A stretch of DNA of 64,000 bases from Stichopus chloronotus (Eukaryota > Echinodermata > Holothuroidea > Aspidochirotida > Stichopodidae): positions 24,275,559-24,339,558 of the forward strand of contig CM037840.1 of assembly GCA_021234535.1 (NCBI GenBank), read 5' to 3'. Of this stretch, positions 5,452 to 16,330 are shown in pieces; position 1 is the stretch's first letter; the number at the start of each line of letters is the position of its first letter. The notes under the pieces were generated by a model that saw only the letters and a list, made by a program, of their open reading frames with translations, searched no databases and had not been told where the DNA came from. A program made the position numbers and the translations under genes.

Positions 5452-6330
5452 TCATTGACCCTTGAAGATTCCGCTTTCTGACATTCCGCTCTTAAATGCA
5501 TTAAGTGATGGGGCACTCACAACTTTCTCTGGTAGTTTATTCCATACTTTCCATATTCTATTAAAATATGAATTCTTCGTCACTTCCAATCTCACTGTTG
5601 ATGGTCTTATTCCTTTGGAGTGTCCTCTCGTTTTACTATCTCTAATAATTCCCACATGATCTTCTAATTTGATGTTCAGTTTCCCTCGTGTTATATTATA
5701 AAATGTTATTAAATCCTGGCGCATATGTCGTTGTTCAATTGTCATCAACCTTAGGTCTTGAATTCTTTCTTCGTATGATTTACTCTCCATTCCTTTTATT
5801 AACCTGGTCATTCTCTGTTGTACTCCTTCCATTAAATCGATATCTTATTTAAATATGGCTTCCAGAGTTGAGTGAAATAATCCAGATGTGGTCTTACTAA
5901 AGACTTATACAGGTTCAAAACAACTTTACGATCAAACTTTATGAAGTTCCATTTGATAATACCCATAACTTTATTAGCTTTTTTCTGTTGCTTCGGCACA
6001 TTGTCAACTGAACTTCATTGATGTTTTCACATACACTCCCAAATCCTTCTCCTCATCACTTTCTGACAATTCCTTCCCTTCCATATAATACTTGTACTTA
6101 GGATTATTATGTCCAAAATGCATTACGGAACATTTTCCCACATCAAATTTCATTTGCCACTTGTCAGTCCATGACATCAAAATATCCAAGTCTTGCTGCA
6201 GCTGCTGCTTATCTCTCTCATCTCTCTCTCTTATCTCTCTCATCTCTTATTGGACAAATTATTTTTGTATCATCAGCGAAGTTACTTAATTCTCTTGTTT
6301 CTTACTTAATTCTCTTGTTCTCGGTGATCG
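5452..6330 (-). pseudogene. 5'-truncated CR1/L2-type LINE, C-terminal half of the reverse transcriptase
   Basis: Read on the minus strand, the catalytic motif FADD is at 6269-6280. It is followed by the thumb-side segment with LQQDLD.L..W...W.MKF...KC.VMHFG and DLGV (6004-6243). After a frame break comes the C-terminal segment with RM..LI.GM...YEER...L.L and WNKLPE (5452-5832). This order is diagnostic of ORF2 of CR1/L2-type LINEs. The endonuclease and the N-terminal RT are absent, as expected from 5' truncation. A TCTC-rich run at 6205-6250 lies inside the coding part and gives an ERDERDK stretch, an expanded microsatellite. It is not the same family as the larger LINE at 13.7-18.4 kb. Confidence 0.85.
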
Positions 6331-7924
6331 CCCCTGGTTTAACAAGTCGGGTTACCAGCGATTAAGCCACGGTCACCTGACTCACATGGGCCAATTGGAG
6401 TTGAGGATTCTTTCCAAGTATGTATGAATATCAATTGAACGTGACCTACGCACTGAATAGCGTGCGGGTTGCACGCGCCTGCGTATTACACGTGAAAATG
6501 ATATTTGATAGCAGATTAAACGTTCCCATAGTGGTCATCCAATCTGGATGGCCTGAAGAAAGTTGATCAGACTATGCAACAGTTTTGGCAGAAGAAACAA
6601 ACAGCTCAATGCGAAGAACATAAATTGTTTTTTGAACGTATACGATGTGGACAAGATATAATGGGTTTAATGTATATATCCCAGTGAGCTTGTACTTTGT
6701 AGTACAAAGTATCCATTGATAAATCAAAACGTACGTGGCAGTAATGCTGTGACTTCGAATACCTCGTTGCGATAGTTTGGTCTCTGCAGTGAAGTCTCGA
6801 AAAGATACTTTTATGGTGTTTTGCCCCCCAAAAAATGCATTTTTTAAAGACTGTCGGTTCTGAGTTTTGGACTGAGTTAAACCAATGTTTCCCTTTAGTG
6901 GCTTGAGTTATAGTGGGTATTATTAGAGGAAGTAGGCTAGTCACAATTGACGAGGGGTGATGTTAAATGTTAATATAAAGAACTTTTAGATTGGATTTAC
7001 GTTATTGCAGCCACTACTAGGCAACGCTTATCTTGTCTTCAAAGCGTACGATATTGAAGCTAAAACTGAACAGGCACGGGTCCATGCGTGGGCGCACAAA
7101 GCCCTTTTCCAATGACCAACGATTTTTTTCTTTTGCCTAATATCTGAAAAATCTGATGAGAAAATATGCTTACCAGATGCTGGGAAATAGCATTGGAGAG
7201 CATTTAGAATTCAACTCAAAATTTTCAACCCCACCCTCCTGGCTTTGGTGCCCACTCACCAGGCTTTTGATTGAGTGCGCCCTTCCTGGATCCGTACCTA
7301 TTACACGTATTAAAGGTACAAGTAATATGGAAGGTATGAAGGACGGTGAATCTAAAAGACTTTTAGATGGGTTATGTTATTACACTAACTTCTGGAAGAA
7401 GTTTATCTTCCACAGAAAGTATAATTAAGAGGGGAGTTGATCCGACTTAATGCTCTTCAGGATCAATAATTTTAGGTGCTACATACGCTACTGTAATATT
7501 TAAGGAACTGTGCACTGGTCTCGTCCCGCGTAAAGGTAATCTGCATTCCGTGGTATACTGCACTGTACCATCGCGGCTTTGAAAATTAATCTGTAACTAT
7601 GTAAGACATGAATATTTTAAAACGATCACTTAAAATGTTGAATGCAGGTTACCTCTGCCTCAGCTAAACTATCATAGACGCACACACCAAACAAATGACA
7701 TGACAGTTAAATCAAAGTTTCCAATCTATTTATAAAGATTAAAACTTTCGTATTTAAGATAAGTACATATCAAGTTGTGATAAACAAAATATGCAAACAG
7801 AGATAAAGAAAAAACCTTTGACTTTATGAACAATTAAAGGGAAAGGATAAATGTACTAACCTATTTTATCATTTTATGCAGATCACCAGGACAATTGATC
7901 CATTACAATTCAACCAAGAAGGAA
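6331..7924. other. no recognisable feature
   Basis: Mixed AT-rich sequence. Open frames at 6606-6944 (-) and 7156-7428 (+) match nothing I recognise and show no splice context. Confidence 0.5.
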
Positions 7925-8220
7925 ACGAAATGGTGGATAGGCGGCCTCCTCCTCCCCTAACAGCCACCCCTGTTCCTCTCCATTTTGGTATTTTAGCTGT
8001 CGTTTATTTACCCCATGAAAGTCATCAGAGTTTCAATGGGAAACAGTATTATGGATTACTTAAAAAAAAAAAATGAAACATGAATCTGAAAGTGATGGAT
8101 ACGTGGCCTCCTCCCCTTATAGCCACCCCTGTTCCTCTCCATTTTGGTATTTTAGTGATTCTTCCTTTACTTTATGAAAGTCACCAGCGTCAATCCAAAC
8201 TGTGGTATGGATTATAAAAT
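7925..8220 (+). repeat. imperfect tandem duplication, about 120 bp at a spacing of about 163 bp
   Basis: The segment beginning GTGGATAGGCGGCCTCC near 7932 and continuing through AGCCACCCCTGTTCCTCTCC and ATGAAAGTCA to TATGGATTA recurs, diverged, from about 8095. The two halves are separated by an A-run at 8060-8074. Confidence 0.7.
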
Positions 8221-8423
8221 CAAATAAATGGGCAAATACAAACAAGAAAATTCTGGAGAGGCATTTGAATGATAGTGAACGTGCTAGTAAGAAACTTAGA
8301 ATTTTTTTTTTTTTTTTTGCAAAGACACAAAAGTATGACCTAACTTTCTTCCTACCCACGTCTCTATGACAGTGACTAGCCAAAAACATACTAGTTAACT
8401 ATTATAAATGACGTTTGAAAAAA

Positions 8424-8906
8424 GACACTGCAAGGCATTCGAACAAGCTTGACCTGACCCTTGCTCGGAAAAGCTGCCTGAGTACCAATACAATGATTAC
8501 TTACCAACCAAAATCAGTCCAAGAAGGGGCCTAGTGAAAAGGTTACATGGGTAACTGTAGACACTGCAAGGCATTCAAACAAACTTGACCTGGCCCTTGC
8601 TCGGAAAAGATGCCTTAGTACCAATACGATGATTACTTACCAACCAAAATCAGTCCAAGAAGGGGCCTAGTGAAAAGGTTACATGGGTAACTGAAGACAC
8701 TGCAAGGCATTCTAACAAACTTGACCTGGCCCTTGCTCGGAAAAGCTGCCTGATTACCAATACAATGCATACCTACCAACCAAAATCAGTACACTAAAGG
8801 GCCTAGTGAAAAGGTTACATAGGTAACTGTAGACACTGCAAGACATTCAAACAAACTTGACCTGGCCCTTGCTCGGAAAAGCTGCCTGAAAACCAATACA
8901 ATGCTT
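8424..8906 (+). repeat. tandem array, 136-bp unit, 3.5 copies
   Basis: The marker GACACTGCAAG starts at 8424, 8560, 8696 and 8832 (GACACTGCAAGA), an exact 136-bp period with only a few substitutions between copies. Each full unit holds CTTGACCTGGCCCTTGCTCGG and a GGTTACATGGGTAAC motif. The array lies about 130 bp beyond the 3' end of the SGNH/transposase unit, so it may be a subterminal array of that element; this is not shown. Confidence 0.92.
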
Positions 8907-9039
8907 CCTACGGTAATCCACCAAAGAACAATAAGGTAATTTATTTCACATAAGTCTCAACTCTAGGCCTAAATTTATATTGCATCTAGTTCCGTTGAGG
9001 GTCTATGGCATCTAGCAAAAGGCTCAAAATGACATGAAT

Positions 9040-9723
9040 TCAGAAGTGAAACTTATTGTGGTGGTTGTGATGACTGGATGGGCTGGCTTGTTCTGACAGA
9101 GGTAGGAGAAATTTTGAAACATTTTTGCCTAAACTTCTACAAATACTAATGGCTGCACCACGAATTTTCCTGTAGTACTGTTTTGTGCCTACATCGTTCA
9201 AATGGACGCCATCATGTCTTATCACACTGGGGTTGGATGCAATTCCTTTTCTGCCACCTTGACTCCATGATGAAATTTTTGCATCACTACAGCAGAGGGC
9301 CTCAAAAGAGGAATTCAAAACATCTACCTTCTGGCTATAATTTGGGACACAATTACGTAGTTTTTCCCTATGGATAGTTTCCAATACACAAACCACTTTC
9401 ACATTGTAGTGATGGATTCAAAACTTGCACAAATCAAAAATCCATTGGGCAGGCAGCTCTGGGTTGATGGCCGGATTGCACAGATCATTTCAACTTATAT
9501 CCAAAATGATGGCGTCCAGGTGCAGCACTCCCACCACTAGTCTAGCTGCCCTTCCCCTCATTCCTGGCAGTTTCAGACCACCTACACCATTAACTGTAAC
9601 TTTCACATTCCCTTGTAAACCTAAATTCTGTTTCAACCCCATTTTCCTGGCTGAAACTGCCTCTCCTAACCTCCGGACTAAAGAGTGCCCCCATACCAGG
9701 ATGGTTGTTGAATCCATCTGCAC
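9040..9723 (-). pseudogene. SGNH-hydrolase (esterase) reading frame downstream of the transposase, two in-frame stops
   Basis: Three SGNH blocks appear in order in one frame. The nucleophile block reads ILVWGHSLVRRL, with Ser at 9682-9684 (GHS in place of the usual GDS). An ND pair at 9484-9489 is preceded by a TGA (9490-9492) where GxND would need its x. The last block reads RHDGVHLND, with Asp at 9211-9213 and His at 9202-9204. A second TGA lies at 9418-9420; sequence between and after the stops stays homologous in feel (LCNP...PE, KVVCVLETIHREKL), so the two TGAs look like point mutations. SGNH esterase domains are known in ORF1 of CR1-type LINEs; here the domain stands alone after a DNA-transposase-like gene, 25 bases past its stop and in the same frame. 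The last residues, a His-rich tail, end at 9040. Confidence 0.7.
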
Positions 9724-9747
9724 AACCTGAAAGAGAAAAAGAGGTGG

Positions 9748-11091
9748 TTACACAAATCGAAGCTCGTGCTTCAGATAGTCTTGAAGCAAATGACATTCAA
9801 AGACATCATCTTCATCCTCATCTTGAGGGTCCTCATTTGTGTAGATGACTTCGAACAAAGTGTTGTTTCCTTCATCTTTATTAAAACTCACAACAACACC
9901 TTTGCACCAAATCTCTTCATCATCTACTAACCACAAATGCATTATTTCCTTATTTAACATGTCACCTGGGCTTAGAATTAATACTCTTAAATCACCACAC
10001 TGAATGTCCTCCTCAATGTCCTTTAAACTGAATGAATAGACGTGAGGGAATCCATCGTATCGAAGGAAGCACTTGCTGCCTTTAGAACCAACTACAATAC
10101 CCTTGTACCAGTCCACTTGTCCATCTTCTTCTCTGTGGTGCTCTATACGTTTGCCAACCAACTCTTCTGGCACTTTGATGTTACTACCTTCAGTCACTCG
10201 TGCCTTCTTTGCTGCGGGGGGTTGAAGTCTGCTTTTGAATGCCTCTACTGCATCCACTGGAGCTAAACCAACAGCCACGTTCTGTAGGCTGGATGATGCT
10301 TCTTCCAAGTGCTTGTTGTCTGACTCCATGACTGAAAGCAGTGAGGCTTTCAATTCCTTGACAGTCTTGGATTTTCCACTGACTGACAGGTTCAGAACAC
10401 CACCTTTGTTCCTGGCACCAAGTACGTACCTTCGATACTTCAGTTGTGTTTGCAAGTACTTAGACTTACTCTTCATCGACGCCAGCTCACTCAATTTCTG
10501 GTCAAGTTCGGCATGGGACTCTGCTAAACCACCAACTGCTTTGATATCCTTTCCCAGGAGAAGCTTTCGGGTACGATCTTGTCTTTTCTTCCTTGCAATG
10601 GCTTCCTTCTTGTCCAGTTCCTTCTTCTCCCTTGCAACTCTGATGGTGGCTAGTCTTTCCACATATGCCTTCTTTTGCTGGGCCTTGGACTTCTGTGCAA
10701 GTGCTAGATATGCTGAGCGTTGTGACTCTTCCAGGGAGGCAGTCCAGTTGGATGTTTGGTTCCTCCTGTACATGATCATAGCTTCCAATGCTATGGATGA
10801 AGCACTTGGTTTCTCCCTCATAAGGCGATCTAACATACCAAAGTCACGTTCCACTGTAGTGTTTGTTGTTGGCACACTGTGCGTTTCTCTGTGTTGGTCA
10901 GCAGACATGCTAGAATACTTTCCACCTTTCAAATGCTCAGACAACATTCTCTCACTGAGCATTTTGAAAGATGAACACAGCATTTCCAGAACCTGTTTGA
11001 CCATTCCATCAAGCTCACATGACTTCATGAGACTGTCATACACAGAGTCTTTCTTCACAGGTACATCAGAATAGAGGATGTCTTTGGCCAC
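9748..11091 (-). pseudogene. transposase C-terminal segment: catalytic Glu region, basic helix, two Tudor/Agenet-like modules
   Basis: Residues 75-90 of this segment (TTNTTVERDFGMLDRL) resemble the ERxF catalytic Glu motif of hAT-like RNase H-fold transposases; Glu is at 10849-10851. Residues 110-220 are a long Lys/Glu-rich helix. Residues 311-370 carry VGKRIEHH, DWYKGIVV and LRYDG...Y.F.L..DI..GDLRVL, the pattern of a Tudor/Agenet-like chromatin-reader fold. Residues 375-443 repeat the scheme (HLWLVDDEEIWCKGVV, FEVIY, HLLQDYL). The acidic DEDEDD linker is inside the second module. The segment begins at a frameshift, not at a start codon: the first codon is GTG, and upstream sequence continues in another frame. 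It ends at TAA 9748-9750. The overlapping 279-codon frame on the plus strand at 10235-11074 is its shadow. Confidence 0.75.
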
Positions 11092-11884
11092 TCATCAAGT
11101 CTGTGGAATCACTGCTCCATTTTGTGAGGCACTGCAGAAGCCTGTCGTAACGCTCATTCATCGCTAGCACATGTTGTTCCTTCTCCATTGCCCGCCAGAG
11201 TGGTCCCGTGACTGCTTTGTCGATGATGCCCAGGGATCTGACACCAGCTATGTACTGCGGAACTTCGAGATCAGCAGCAACAGCCAGCATCAGCTCGTTC
11301 TCTGACTTGTGCCTGTTGAAGAAAACCGAAAGGTGGTGAAACATGTGATAGACACCAGCTCCATTGTGAAATAGAATATTAAACCTATTTCCCTTGAATG
11401 GGGCTAGAGGGACACTATTGACACCATGCTCAGCAGATAGAAAAGCCCTAAACTGTGCTGCTTTGCCACTCTTCTCACATCCACGATCCTGAACTCCGTG
11501 GCACACAGTGCAAACAAGTCGTTCAGTCCCACTTTCATCCTTCCCTGCAAAGCCTGTCACAAGTTGAGCACCTACCTTTTCCTCACCAAAAATCATCTGC
11601 TCCCAAGCCTTGAGAGTTGACGATGCTTGTTCGGCAAGACCGACAACAAAGTGCATGCCACAGAAAAACTCATTGAGTTCCTGGGCTTTCTCTCTCTGTG
11701 TCAATGACATCTTGTCCCAGCCACCACTTACAGCTTTCAGAAACTTGCCTCTGAAGTCAGCAAGAAGTCCATCGAACTTTTTCTGGACAGAGTGTCTATC
11801 ACTCATGACATTCTTGATCTTTGCCAAGAAAAGGCCTAAATTAAGCCTATCCTGTTCCACCAAGGTCAACAAGATCTTGGACAA
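11066..11884 (-). pseudogene. transposase central segment: second catalytic Asp and Cys/His region
   Basis: The sequence IKNVMSDRHSVQKKF places an Asp (11798-11800) in the context SDR...KKF, typical of the second acidic residue of RNase H-fold transposases. It lies about 73 residues after the first Asp if the frameshift near 11870 is bridged. Further on, CTVCHG...RGC and NILFHNGAGVYHMFHHL make a Cys/His-rich insertion before the Glu region, some 320 residues downstream of this Asp. The segment ends by frameshift near 11090, where the protein sense passes into the next frame at DLMS. Confidence 0.7.
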
Positions 11885-12365
11885 TTTCTTTCAACACTGT
11901 TAATGTGGTGACAGCTGTACCATCCGCTGTCTCTCGCACTCCCAGCGTGAACACCTTACCCTCACCTAAGCCTATATCGTACGAGCCAAAGTGATGGCCA
12001 AACCTGGTTGTGCCATCGCTACAGAGAGTGAGATTGTCACCCTCAAGAACCTCATGGCACAACTGAAGTTGTGCCATAGCCCTTGCCTCAAAAACCATAT
12101 CCTTGGCAAAGGTGGCCTTAGGCAATCTCTCTACATCAAGGCCTGCAATGTCCTTCAGCACTGTGCGCACAATGTCTTCACAATTATTGCTACCAACATT
12201 CAGGCACATCAAGTGCTGGTATACACTCCTAATGCTGTCCTTATATTTACCTTTAACCATTGTGCTTACCTTGCCACATTCTTTGTTGACCATGTCTTCT
12301 AGACGCTCTTCTAGTTGCGCCATCTGTTCTTCTCTGTCTCGAAGCTCATCGTTCAGCTCTTGCAT
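11847..12365 (-). pseudogene. transposase segment with first catalytic Asp
   Basis: After a short coiled coil (ELNDELRDREEQMAQLEERL) comes a helical region, then LTLCSDGTTRFGHHFGSYDI at residues 112-131. The Asp of CSDGTT (12015-12017) is the candidate first catalytic residue, on a strand followed by a turn and GKVFTLGVRE, as in an RNase H fold. The segment enters by a frameshift at an A-run near 12366-12369 and leaves by one near 11870. Both sites are close to short homopolymers. Confidence 0.7.
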
Positions 12366-12608
12366 TTTTCGTCAGGCTGGCAAAGTCTGATGTACTTTTC
12401 TTCTTGTAGTATGAAGCCCTTCTCTGCATCCTGTCTCTCTCTTCCTCTAGCTGCTTCTGTTTGGTGGTGTCCTTCTGCCTTTGGTCCTCCATCTCCTTTT
12501 TCATTCCTTTCACCCGCTGCTTCAAGTCTGCCAAAAGCTTATTCTTTCGTTGTACCTGCCTACGAATGTTCCTGGTGGTACTGCTACTTCCTGGTTCTGC
12601 GCGTACCT
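12366..12608 (-). pseudogene. transposase coiled-coil segment
   Basis: In the third minus frame the sequence after KRRQE continues as a Lys/Arg/Glu/Gln-rich helix (VKGMKKEMEDQRQKDTTKQK and QLEEERDRMQRR) up to SDFASLTKN, where an A-run shifts the frame. It joins the N-terminal coiled coil without a gap in sense, so one extra or missing base near 12608 is the simplest explanation. Confidence 0.65.
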
Positions 12609-13226
12609 TTACCTCTCTTGTCTTCTCTTTATGCTGAGATCTGTCTCCAGTTGTTTGACTTTTTCCAGTAAATCTGCCCGCTCTGCGAGAATCTCGTCCA
12701 GGAAATCCCTCTGTGATTTCTGCTCCTTCTTCAGTTCATCTACTTCTCGTCGAAGCTGGTCCTTCTGCTGTTGAAGTCTGGTGTACATATCCTGGGAAAC
12801 ACTGCCATGCTCTTCAGTAGGGGGGGTTTTCGTATGCGACTTAAAAATACATGACTCTTGACGCAAAAAAACACTAAACTTTTCTTTGCTTTTCAGTTTT
12901 GCCAATGCACGTCGTGTTTTCACAACCTTCAACAATCTAGAATGAACAGTATTTTCCTTACAGTTAATAGTATGTACATCGAAGAACATGCCTACCAACT
13001 TAATAAACAACTGTACCTTATTTGTACCTGCCTTACTCTTACTACCGACAATACGCCACAATTCATACACGATGCCATTGGAGAGACGAGTGCTTGGCAA
13101 CTTTTCAGTGACATTTAACATTAGGTCAGAGTTGGTCTCCTCCCTAGTATTATCTAACAGTGACAAAGCTGCTTCCACACTCCGTAAAGTGATACCTACC
13201 TCTTCACAAAAACTGTGGTCGGCCAT
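12609..13226 (-). pseudogene. N-terminal domain and coiled coil of the transposase-like protein
   Basis: This 205-codon segment starts at ATG 13224-13226. Residues 1-110 form a compact domain I do not recognise (two conserved-looking stretches, VYELWRIVGSK and FIKLVGMFFDVHT). Residues 145-205 are a strong coiled coil (LQQQKDQLRREVDELKKEQK). The start is chosen because no earlier in-frame Met with coding character is seen upstream. The domain could be a DNA-binding module, by position only. The frame is lost at TAA within 12609-12611. Confidence 0.65.
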
Positions 13227-13711
13227 TATCTGCTTTCAAAAGTACTCACCGATACAGACAATGGTCTTAAACAGGAGGAATTTCGATGAAAATTTCTTGA
13301 GTTGAAAGTGTTTGTACGTTCGTTGGAGATTCACGTTATGAGTATACACGTGCTGGATATATAGCGTGCCTCGCGACAATACACTGCACTACGTGTACGG
13401 CAAGAGTTATCTGCTGTTTGAGAAGATTTAAGAAAAATACTAAACACTTCCAAACTTTCAACACAAAAAAAGGCACAATATGTGTTATACCAGCATAAAT
13501 ACTCTTAAAGTTTCCTGGCTGTCACTGCTTGCTTGTGTTTTTGCAAATTTGGCCCAGACTACCTTGCCTACAGTGCCTAACAATAGGTGTAAGCAAATCA
13601 CACACTGGTTACCAAAGCAACCCTCCCTTTAACAGCTATCCGGCCGTACGGTTACTTGCACTGCTTTTAGTTTACGTTACTGCACGTTAGGATAGAAACT
13701 TACAGCCTTAG
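13227..13711. other. 5' flank of the transposase-like gene
   Basis: This is the expected place for the promoter and terminal repeat of the unit. It is locally CpG-richer than its surroundings. I see no inverted match to the left flank by eye. Confidence 0.4.
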
Positions 13712-16330
13712 TTAACATAACATAACATAACAAGTTTAAGGGCAAAGGAGGGCAATGGCCCTATAAGATGCCCTGTAATCAGACCCTCCAAAAAACCCTA
13801 ACCAAACTAATATCCAACAAAGCCTAGTGTAATCAGATTCTGCCACAGTCACAATAAAACTTCTCAATGTTACCTTTGAAGCTATTTACTTAAGTGGAAT
13901 TTACAACCCAATCAGAAAGACTACAGTATTCCACTCATTGACAACTCTATGAGAGAAGCTAAACTTTCTCACATCAAGCCTAGAGAAGCATTTCACCAGC
14001 TTCTTACAAGGACCACGAACGGGAATTAGGACAAACCTCTATGTAATCACAATTAGACAGAGAATTCCTACCAGATAGGAATTTTAAAACCAGCAACATT
14101 GAACATATCCCCCCTGATCCTTCTTAACTCAAGAGTAGTAAGTCCCAGACATTTAAGCCTATCATGATAAGGGAGACGACTACATCGGGAATAAGCCAGG
14201 TGGCAACCTTTGCATAATAGGAACTCCATGCCTGCACAGCTGCCTAACCAACTGCTTATACAGGATCAACACAATATCTTTACTAAAATTACTCTTGATC
14301 AATCTGAGCACCCTGTTCGCCCTGGCAACAGCACCTGCGCACTGTGTAGAAGGCTTCAGATCACTTGTAATGATAACACCTACCTGTAGGTCTTTTCAGA
14401 AGTCACATTACTCAAAATACTACCAGCCATGGTATAATCATAATTCAAATTATTAGTACCAAAGTGAAGAACTTTGCATTTGTCAGCATTAAACGACATT
14501 TGCCAAGTTTTGGACCATGTTAATAATCTATCCAAGTCCCCTTGCAACAATGAAGCATCCAAGTTGTCATCACTTACTATCCGATACAGCTTGGTGTCAT
14601 CAGCAAACTTACTAATACTAGAAGTGAGAGAGCTATCTATATCATCAAGTGGAGAATTGGGCCAAGAAGAACAGAACCCTGAGGAACTCCACTTGTGACA
14701 TCTCTCCAAGAAGAGAAATTACCATTCACATCAACTCTCTGCCATCTACTGTATCTACGGGAGTGCTGTAGCCATGAATTGATCAAATCTGCAAACCTGC
14801 ACTGAATACCAAACTGCCGCAGTTTCACCATAAGTACCTAAAGGTACTTTATCAAATGCATTTTGAAAATAAAGGTAGATGACATCAACACAGTGACCAG
14901 AATCAAGAGATAAAGAGACATCCTTACGAAAACTCAGTAAATTAGAAACACATCACCTGTTAGGCAGGAAACCATGCTGAGACAAGTTCAGTAAACTATT
15001 ATCTAAAAGGTACTTAAGCATATAATCCTTGTACCACAGACTCCATGACTTTACACACTACACTGTTAAACTAACAGGCCTATAGTTGCAAGGCAAGGTC
15101 CAATCCCCTATCTTAAAAATAGGAGTAACGTTAGCAATCCGCCAGTCATCTGGAACGTAGCACAAGTCTAGACATTTCTGAAAAATAATACACAGAGGAA
15201 CTGACAAAATCTCAGAGCATTCATGCAGTATGGCAGGATGGATCGCATCAGGCCCAGAAGACTTGCTAGCTTTCAAACTCCTAAGTTTTTTGCAAACCAG
15301 TTCCCCAGAGAAAACAAAAATCTTCCGTGCAAACTGAGCTGACTGAATCTCTACAAAAAACTGTTTCAGAAGACTCCTTGGTAAAGACAGAAACAAACTA
15401 ATCATTCAACAAATTAGCCATATCCTGATGATCACTAACTAAAGTACCCCCATCACCATGGAAAGGCCCAACACCCTCTTTAACTTTCTGTTTCAACCTA
15501 ACATAAGCATGAAAAGACTTGGGATTAAACTTCACCTCATTAGACAGCGTCCTCTCAAAATTTGCTTTAGTCACTTTAACAAAATCCTTCACTAGGAGTT
15601 CCTGGTGCTTATAAACAACAAAATCTGAAGAGCTCCTACTAACTCTGAAGCGATGCCAACATTTACGCTTTTTCCTAGAAGCTCTAAGAACCTCTCTAGA
15701 AACCCACACAGGCCTATGATTACGGAAAGCTTTCTTGAGTGGAACACACAGCCTAATGTAGTACAGTAGCATTAATGACAATGTCACAGAAGACTACCCA
15801 AGCCTCAGCAGAACTTAGGTGAGACAAATGAGTGGACAAATCTATAGAAAGGTGCTCTTTTACTTGCCTAAAATTAGCCTCACTAAAATCCAGAACAAAC
15901 TTATCAGTACGATTGAAACTGCTACGGTAACAAAGATCAAAGCTAATAAGGTCATGGCCACTAGACCCTATTTTACCATAATTCACAACATTTTTTACCA
16001 CATTACACGCAGTACAAAACACCAAATCTAGACAGTTAGCCCCGCTTGTGGGAAAGAGAACATGCTGGGTCCAGAAACCATCCGACTGCAACCTTGAGGA
16101 AATCCCTCCCATGTGAACCACTTAAGTAAGCATGCCAATCACTATCAGGGGAAATTAAAATCAGTACATACAAATGCCATTTTAGAAGAGGCCTCCCTAA
16201 AACAATTGAGTAACCTATGATTATTATCAGCATTAGAATTTGGAGAGCAACAAATAATAGCTATGACCAAAGGAGCACCTTCCCCAATGCCAAAACTAAG
16301 TTCGCAGCATAAGCAGTTTGAATCAGAAAG
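13712..16330 (-). pseudogene. CR1-type LINE, ORF2 (endonuclease and reverse transcriptase), decayed
   Basis: Reading 5' to 3' on the minus strand, the APE-type endonuclease part has PDSDWHAYLSG, LDLVFC and SGHDLISFDL (catalytic His near 15955). A linker follows (15398-15787). The RT has LKASKSSGPDAIHP, then W..ANVTPIFK.GD and NYRPVSL (15058-15405), GVPQGS at 14673-14690 and FADD at 14596-14607. The thumb and C-terminal region run to about 13740. The copy ends in TGTTATGTTATG-type repeats at 13712-13732, a short tandem 3' end as in CR1 LINEs. Several frameshifts and stops break it. The N-terminal part of the endonuclease is missing at the junction with the nested repeat element at 16331. ORF1 resumes beyond it. 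Confidence 0.88.

Follow-up and report, generated by a model that had tools for sequence, protein, structure and literature searches.

A decayed transposon of the holothurian Stichopus chloronotus with a probable hAT-like transposase and Spindlin-like Tudor modules

The stretch of DNA analysed here, called the window, comprises 64,000 nucleotides of Stichopus chloronotus (assembly GCA_021234535.1, contig CM037840.1, positions 24,275,559 to 24,339,558 of the forward strand). On its minus strand it holds what is probably a DNA transposon, dead in this copy, with a transposase of hAT-like RNase H fold. A reading made earlier from the sequence alone had placed a transposase-like gene and an adjacent esterase at 9040..13226; these genes do lie within the element, but the element itself is larger (6427-13418) and has lost both of its ends. 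The features of the element, in window coordinates, are the following, where ORF stands for open reading frame.

6427..13418, minus strand: transposon remnant, delimited by blastn homology with a copy on contig C13 over 6427/6433-13418
9748..13226, minus strand: ORF1, transposase pseudogene, from stop-to-stop ORFs and an open paralogue
12270..13226 (approximate), minus strand: N-terminal helical region and long coiled coil, from the AlphaFold model of the relative P0004 and coiled-coil matches to SMC models
12015..12017, minus strand: predicted first catalytic Asp (CSDGTT), Asp in every one of the 158 proteins that have the position (17 more are gapped)
11798..11800, minus strand: predicted second catalytic Asp (MSDRHSVQKKF), Asp in 169 of 170
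11651..11662, minus strand: CxxH motif (FFCGMH), Cys in 170 of 171 and His in 171 of 172
10849..10851, minus strand: predicted catalytic Glu (TTVERDFG), Glu in 163 of 167
9979..10164 (approximate), minus strand: Tudor module 1, Spindlin/Ssty-like, from Pfam Spin-Ssty (E 8.5e-5) and Spindlin-1 chains
9751..9975 (approximate), minus strand: Tudor module 2, ending at the ORF1 stop 9750-9748
9040..9717, minus strand: ORF2, SGNH/GDSL-esterase-like frame with GHS, SND and DGVHL-like blocks

The motifs CSDGTT, SDRHSVQKKF and TTVERDF, to which the sequence-only reading had drawn attention, are found in minus-strand ORFs with verified codons, and the repair of the frames by comparison with another copy of the same genome, as it had proposed, succeeds with the paralogue at C13:15063688-15067155, which is one uninterrupted frame of 1155 amino acids. 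Relative to this frame, ORF1 of the window has four single-base insertions or deletions and zero in-frame stops. The frame breaks are damage of the window copy. Over 1148 codons, the two copies differ by 0.107 synonymous (dS) and 0.033 nonsynonymous (dN) changes per site, and the dN/dS of 0.31 makes it probable that, for most of their divergence, both lineages were under selection for the protein.

The residue counts given above come from an alignment of 175 proteins, from which P0065, P0066, and P0067 were excluded. All three D/D/E residues are present in 144 of the 175, with median spacings of 73 for the first interval and 316 from D to E (range 249-325 in these 144), which fit the values of about 73 and 320 noted before. 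The structure model is that of P0004, a Patiria relative, and not of the window protein; its best match by Foldseek and VIA-align is Hermes 135-609. This match, the helical insertion between the second D and the E, and the conserved residues bear out the earlier view that the protein is a D/D/E transposase of hAT-like RNase H fold, and among the superfamilies suggested at that time hAT (Hermes) stands out by its fold. No P-element or RAG chain appears among the 50 VIA matches shown, which excludes neither. Judging from the alignment and the model, the D-D-E core would be catalytic. The coiled coil, also part of the earlier description, is a long one according to the P0004 model, in which helices lie between 2 and 115 and then at 146-312 and 321-363, and according to the matches to SMC models. 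Two further Pfam matches in the core, SelO (E 0.025, in a window piece) and UvrD_C (E 0.0062, in P0024), were discounted, being scattered and below the cut-off.

The anatomy of the element, its common termini, its deletion derivatives, and one insertion with a 7-bp target duplication are seen directly in the copies of the genome, the searches of which cover 719 Mb on 267 contigs. The window copy keeps about 7.0 kb, compared with 8.1 kb for the C13 copy, to which it is 93% identical. Positions 13418 and 6433 were considered as element termini and rejected, both being breaks private to the window copy (the 5′ break at 13418, the 3′ break at about 6427): past 13418, three other copies share further element sequence, and the C13, C5, and C106 copies have in common a sharp outer 5′ boundary that terminates in GTCAGCGTTA. 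In one copy (L057, on C1) the two end regions are joined directly, reflecting an internal deletion, and a second deletion derivative, on C17, is about 390 bp long and keeps both ends. Together, these copies set the limits of the C13 copy at C13:15059967-15068031, a length of 8065 bp, TAGCCTTGTCG...CGTCAGCGTTA. Terminal inverted repeats (TIRs) were also sought with a misplaced 3′ end; no clear result came of this, its scores being reached by 0.22 and 0.03 of random pairs, and the search was dropped.

The C13 element is flanked on both sides by CTAATGG, an exact 7-bp target duplication, while the adjoining bases differ. When the two flanks are joined with a single CTAATGG, 38 of the 41 listed matches cross the junction, and two more are the C13 flanks themselves; the empty-site loci L064 and L065 align straight across it, with CTAATGG and CTGATGG, respectively. 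The target of this insertion is itself a dispersed repeat, of which L064 (C3:22700873-22701165) is an example. Remains of the family are found at about 19 places of the genome (41 matches), a figure that is a lower bound and in which the weakest matches may be due to chance, and the 5′ end is present in 6 of 15 matches, C13 itself counted. At least two of the copies (L029, L036) resemble the Patiria protein more closely than they do the C13 copy.

With hAT elements as represented by Hermes, the protein shares the RNase H fold with a helical insertion, a similar spacing of D, D, and E, and the CxxH motif. It differs in that no BED finger was found, a coiled coil being present instead, that no Pfam hAT match was seen, and that C-terminal Tudor modules and a second, esterase-like ORF are added. 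The description of Dada in part of its source (PMC3706591), with a core related to hAT, P, and Kolobok, target site duplications of 6-7 bp, and no TIRs, would accommodate the 7-bp duplication of the one copy and the poor TIRs seen here. However, the D-to-E spacing in the same account of Dada-U6_DR is 176 (D635-E811; PMC3706591), against a median of 316 here. Dada is further described there as having a DxxH motif and zinc fingers of the CCCC and CCHC types and as inserting in multicopy small RNA genes (PMC3706591), whereas the present family has CxxH and the C13 target, a single insertion, is a dispersed repeat with no Rfam match in its flanks or in L064. We regard membership in the Dada superfamily as very improbable. 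Kolobok, for which the partial account gives a TTAA duplication (PMC9587614), was set aside, CTAATGG being observed instead. IS3EU takes its name from IS3 and is marked by TA..TA termini and, in general, duplications of 6 bp (PMC10045372), as well as by an IS3-like transposase; the element likewise has TA..TA at its ends, but a 7-bp duplication, and it is Hermes whose fold is matched. As for KDZ/Zisupton, no KDZ model is among the Pfam matches listed, these coming from general Pfam scans only.

The two Tudor/Agenet-like modules of the earlier reading are supported by Pfam and by Spindlin-1 chains, which match at E 3e-7 for the whole sequence with the repeats summed, and they are more exactly described as Spindlin-like. 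They form tandem Tudor-like repeats with an aromatic cage, the cage of module 1 being partial. The four positions of the Spindlin-1 cage for trimethylated lysine 4 of histone H3 (H3K4me3) are W, W, Y, and F in module 2 of the open paralogue. It is the conservation of these module-2 positions on which we base the proposal that the Tudor modules may bind methyl-lysine. Compared to Spindlin/Ssty proteins, there are here two (or one) repeats rather than three, and these are fused to a transposase. In the literature searched, by titles and the beginnings of abstracts, no description was found of a transposase with Spindlin or Agenet modules, Repbase, where the family may be listed, lying outside the search; matches combining the hAT superfamily with a Tudor domain were unrelated by the same standard.

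ORF2 begins 30 bp past the ORF1 stop. In the genome, its four matches fall at two places, the window and C13, and in each the transposase gene precedes it; the fragment of a long interspersed nuclear element (LINE) at 14380-14718, matching RVT_1, lies beyond the opposite end of the element. For these reasons we link ORF2 to the transposon and not to the LINE, contrary to the possibility raised earlier that the frame belongs to a neighbouring LINE. What stands of the adjacent SGNH esterase is its tie to the transposon, while its identity is weak: the best Pfam match, Lipase_GDSL, has E 0.028 over profile positions 21-202 of 208, below the cut-off, no meaningful PDB match was obtained, and the single-sequence AlphaFold model, with a pLDDT (predicted local distance difference test) of 38, is uninformative as to the fold. 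Genes of SGNH type also ride on other mobile elements, namely the texim genes on fish Helitrons, as described in part of PMC4021074, and the esterases of CR1 LINEs; unlike these, the host here is a DDE transposon, and the likeness is put forward as one of type. No SGNH gene in a DDE transposon was found in the literature searched.

A candidate intron covers the end of ORF1.

9727..9965, minus strand: candidate intron, AG-GTGACA ... CTTTCAG-GTTGTG, with the sites present in the window and in C13

Splicing it out would drop module 2 and lead into the esterase-like exon in a different frame. The protein record P0003, from Apostichopus japonicus, continues beyond module 1 through an apparent splice junction into this other frame, and 28 of 50 residues are identical to the spliced C13 reading, so that the order of ORF1 and ORF2 is probably shared with this second species. 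The same record suggests splicing that drops Tudor module 2. A role of the esterase-like protein in the transposon may be proposed. It is somewhat doubtful, yet worth weighing, that the frame is instead a passenger that inserted once in an ancestor and stands outside the transposon machinery. Such a reading would account for the broken state of ORF2 in both copies (two in-frame TGA codons in the window, a frameshift in C13), for the lack of any homologue at E 0.001 among 390 candidates, and for ORF2 not being found at the other places of the family in this genome; it agrees less well with ORF2 following ORF1 at the same point in the two copies, as also, by P0003, in Apostichopus, and with the protein identity of about 90% between the window and C13 frames.

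The nearest relatives of the transposase are found in Apostichopus (87% identity over 60% of the query) and Holothuria (68% over 100%). In all, 64 relatives came from a first search and 184 from a profile search; 120 of the latter are listed. The named sources include echinoderms, bivalves, a gastropod, and one catfish, Neoarius graeffei, and sponge and jellyfish members are probably present as well, as read from EukProt identifiers. As many as 143 sequences fall in a single 90% cluster. The catfish protein (P0159), the sole one among invertebrate named sources, lies on a 59-Mb contig. Horizontal transfer into the Neoarius graeffei lineage is possible. Three of the listed Mya arenaria members are labelled SPIN3-like protein by NCBI. 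The architecture described here suggests that invertebrate proteins so named and present in many copies, those of Mya among them, are transposases and not Spindlin orthologues.

On this basis the following mechanism can be proposed. The helical N-terminus and the long coiled coil would probably take over from a BED finger, serving in multimerisation or DNA binding. Cutting and joining of the element ends would fall to the D-D-E core and its helical insertion and would leave the 7-bp target duplication; from the fold, the residues, and the structure of the transposon insertion, the most likely course is that excision and joining are hAT-like, with a stagger of 7 bp. The two Spindlin-like modules are probably readers of a methylated histone tail, with H3K4me3 as the ligand by analogy with Tudor 2 of Spindlin-1, and may steer or tether the transposase complex to chromatin, with the esterase-like ORF2 accompanying near-complete copies. 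In the RAG1/RAG2 system, a DDE recombinase of transposon origin works with an H3K4me3 reader, the PHD finger of RAG2; the combination of a DDE enzyme and a reader is the same here, but the RAG reader is a separate protein of another fold. Our tentative reading, for which the odds are somewhat short of even, is that of a transposase with its own histone reader, in which the Spindlin-like modules bind H3K4me3 (module 1 perhaps a second mark) and direct integration to active chromatin, as a single-chain counterpart of RAG1 and RAG2. The lineage would extend over echinoderms, molluscs, and probably sponges and cnidarians, would have gone unrecognised by the Pfam scans used here, and would include a splice form without module 2.

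Several observations speak against the proposed mechanism and the hAT-like assignment. The Tudor matches of the own copy (Spin-Ssty E 8.5e-5) fall under the curated Pfam cut-off, and the single-repeat Spindlin alignments, which concern module 1, are weak alone (independent E-value of about 0.3). Module 1 is without one cage aromatic, position 62 being aromatic in 2 of 30 proteins, and module 2 has an aromatic residue at position 177 in just 20 of 30 (P0003, P0042, and P0063 are excluded from these counts); among ten further relatives, five are without a Tudor match at E 0.01. No Pfam model of hAT (dimerisation domain, BED finger), KDZ, or another transposase matches at E up to 1 in the own copy or at 0.1 and 0.01 in the relatives, and a further Pfam scan of A1 at E up to 10 has no hAT or KDZ among the 25 of 91 families listed. 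The TIR of the C13 element, a short one that pairs imperfectly (7 of 11, judged by eye), was missed by the local aligner. The 7-bp duplication is found in one of the three copies with both ends (in C13, not in L057 or the C17 derivative) and differs from the 8 bp of hAT. Given this duplication and the absence of a hAT sequence-model match, we withhold the hAT label. Finally, holothurian and echinoid sequences group roughly by host in the tree, of which the broad shape alone is used, five own-genome copies being short concatenated pieces, and this fits an old gene family too.

A host gene family domesticated from an old transposon, of which the window copy would be a duplicated pseudogene, is in keeping with such grouping and also with the open C13 frame and its dN/dS of 0.31. 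It is nevertheless improbable and largely refuted for these copies, since C13 has ends, a 7-bp duplication, and uninterrupted target relatives, two deletion derivatives have both ends in common, the family occupies about 19 dispersed places, clusters reach 143 members, and a lone catfish stands among the listed named sources.

The element may also be a cut-and-paste transposon whose Tudor modules act after integration, recruiting transcription factors or protecting it from silencing, an option that we regard as rather unlikely. The promotion of transcription reported for Spindlin1, the members of the family that show no Tudor module, and the single readable insertion with a duplication, which yields no figure for target bias, are consistent with it. 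Against it stand the covalent attachment of the modules to the transposase and the conservation of the cage positions of module 2. In our main reading, the modules may serve in chromatin tethering or targeting.

The element is a little-described animal transposon, which may choose its landing sites by reading chromatin. How cut-and-paste transposons choose their sites in chromatin is largely an open question, and a built-in reader of the Spindlin type, if real, would make this choice directly testable and could provide a tool with integration aimed by histone marks.

The remaining features lie beside the element or between ORF2 and its 3′ end.

6322..6430, strand not assigned: high-copy, short dispersed repeat lying against the 3′ break of the window copy, with 37 of 41 listed matches
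8423..8903, strand not assigned: tandem copies of a unit of about 136 bp, from off-diagonal blastn matches

For the repeat at 6322-6430, 40 of 1469 candidates were scored; no Rfam match was obtained anywhere in the window. The broken 5′ side of the transposon is adjoined by a broken non-LTR (long terminal repeat) retrotransposon on the minus strand, at 13700-15793, in which the RVT_1 fragment at 14380-14718 has E 6e-4, below the cut-off, and a TTATG-type repeat lies near 13710-13730, beside the 5′ break. The unit of about 136 bp is in tandem in the C13 copy too.

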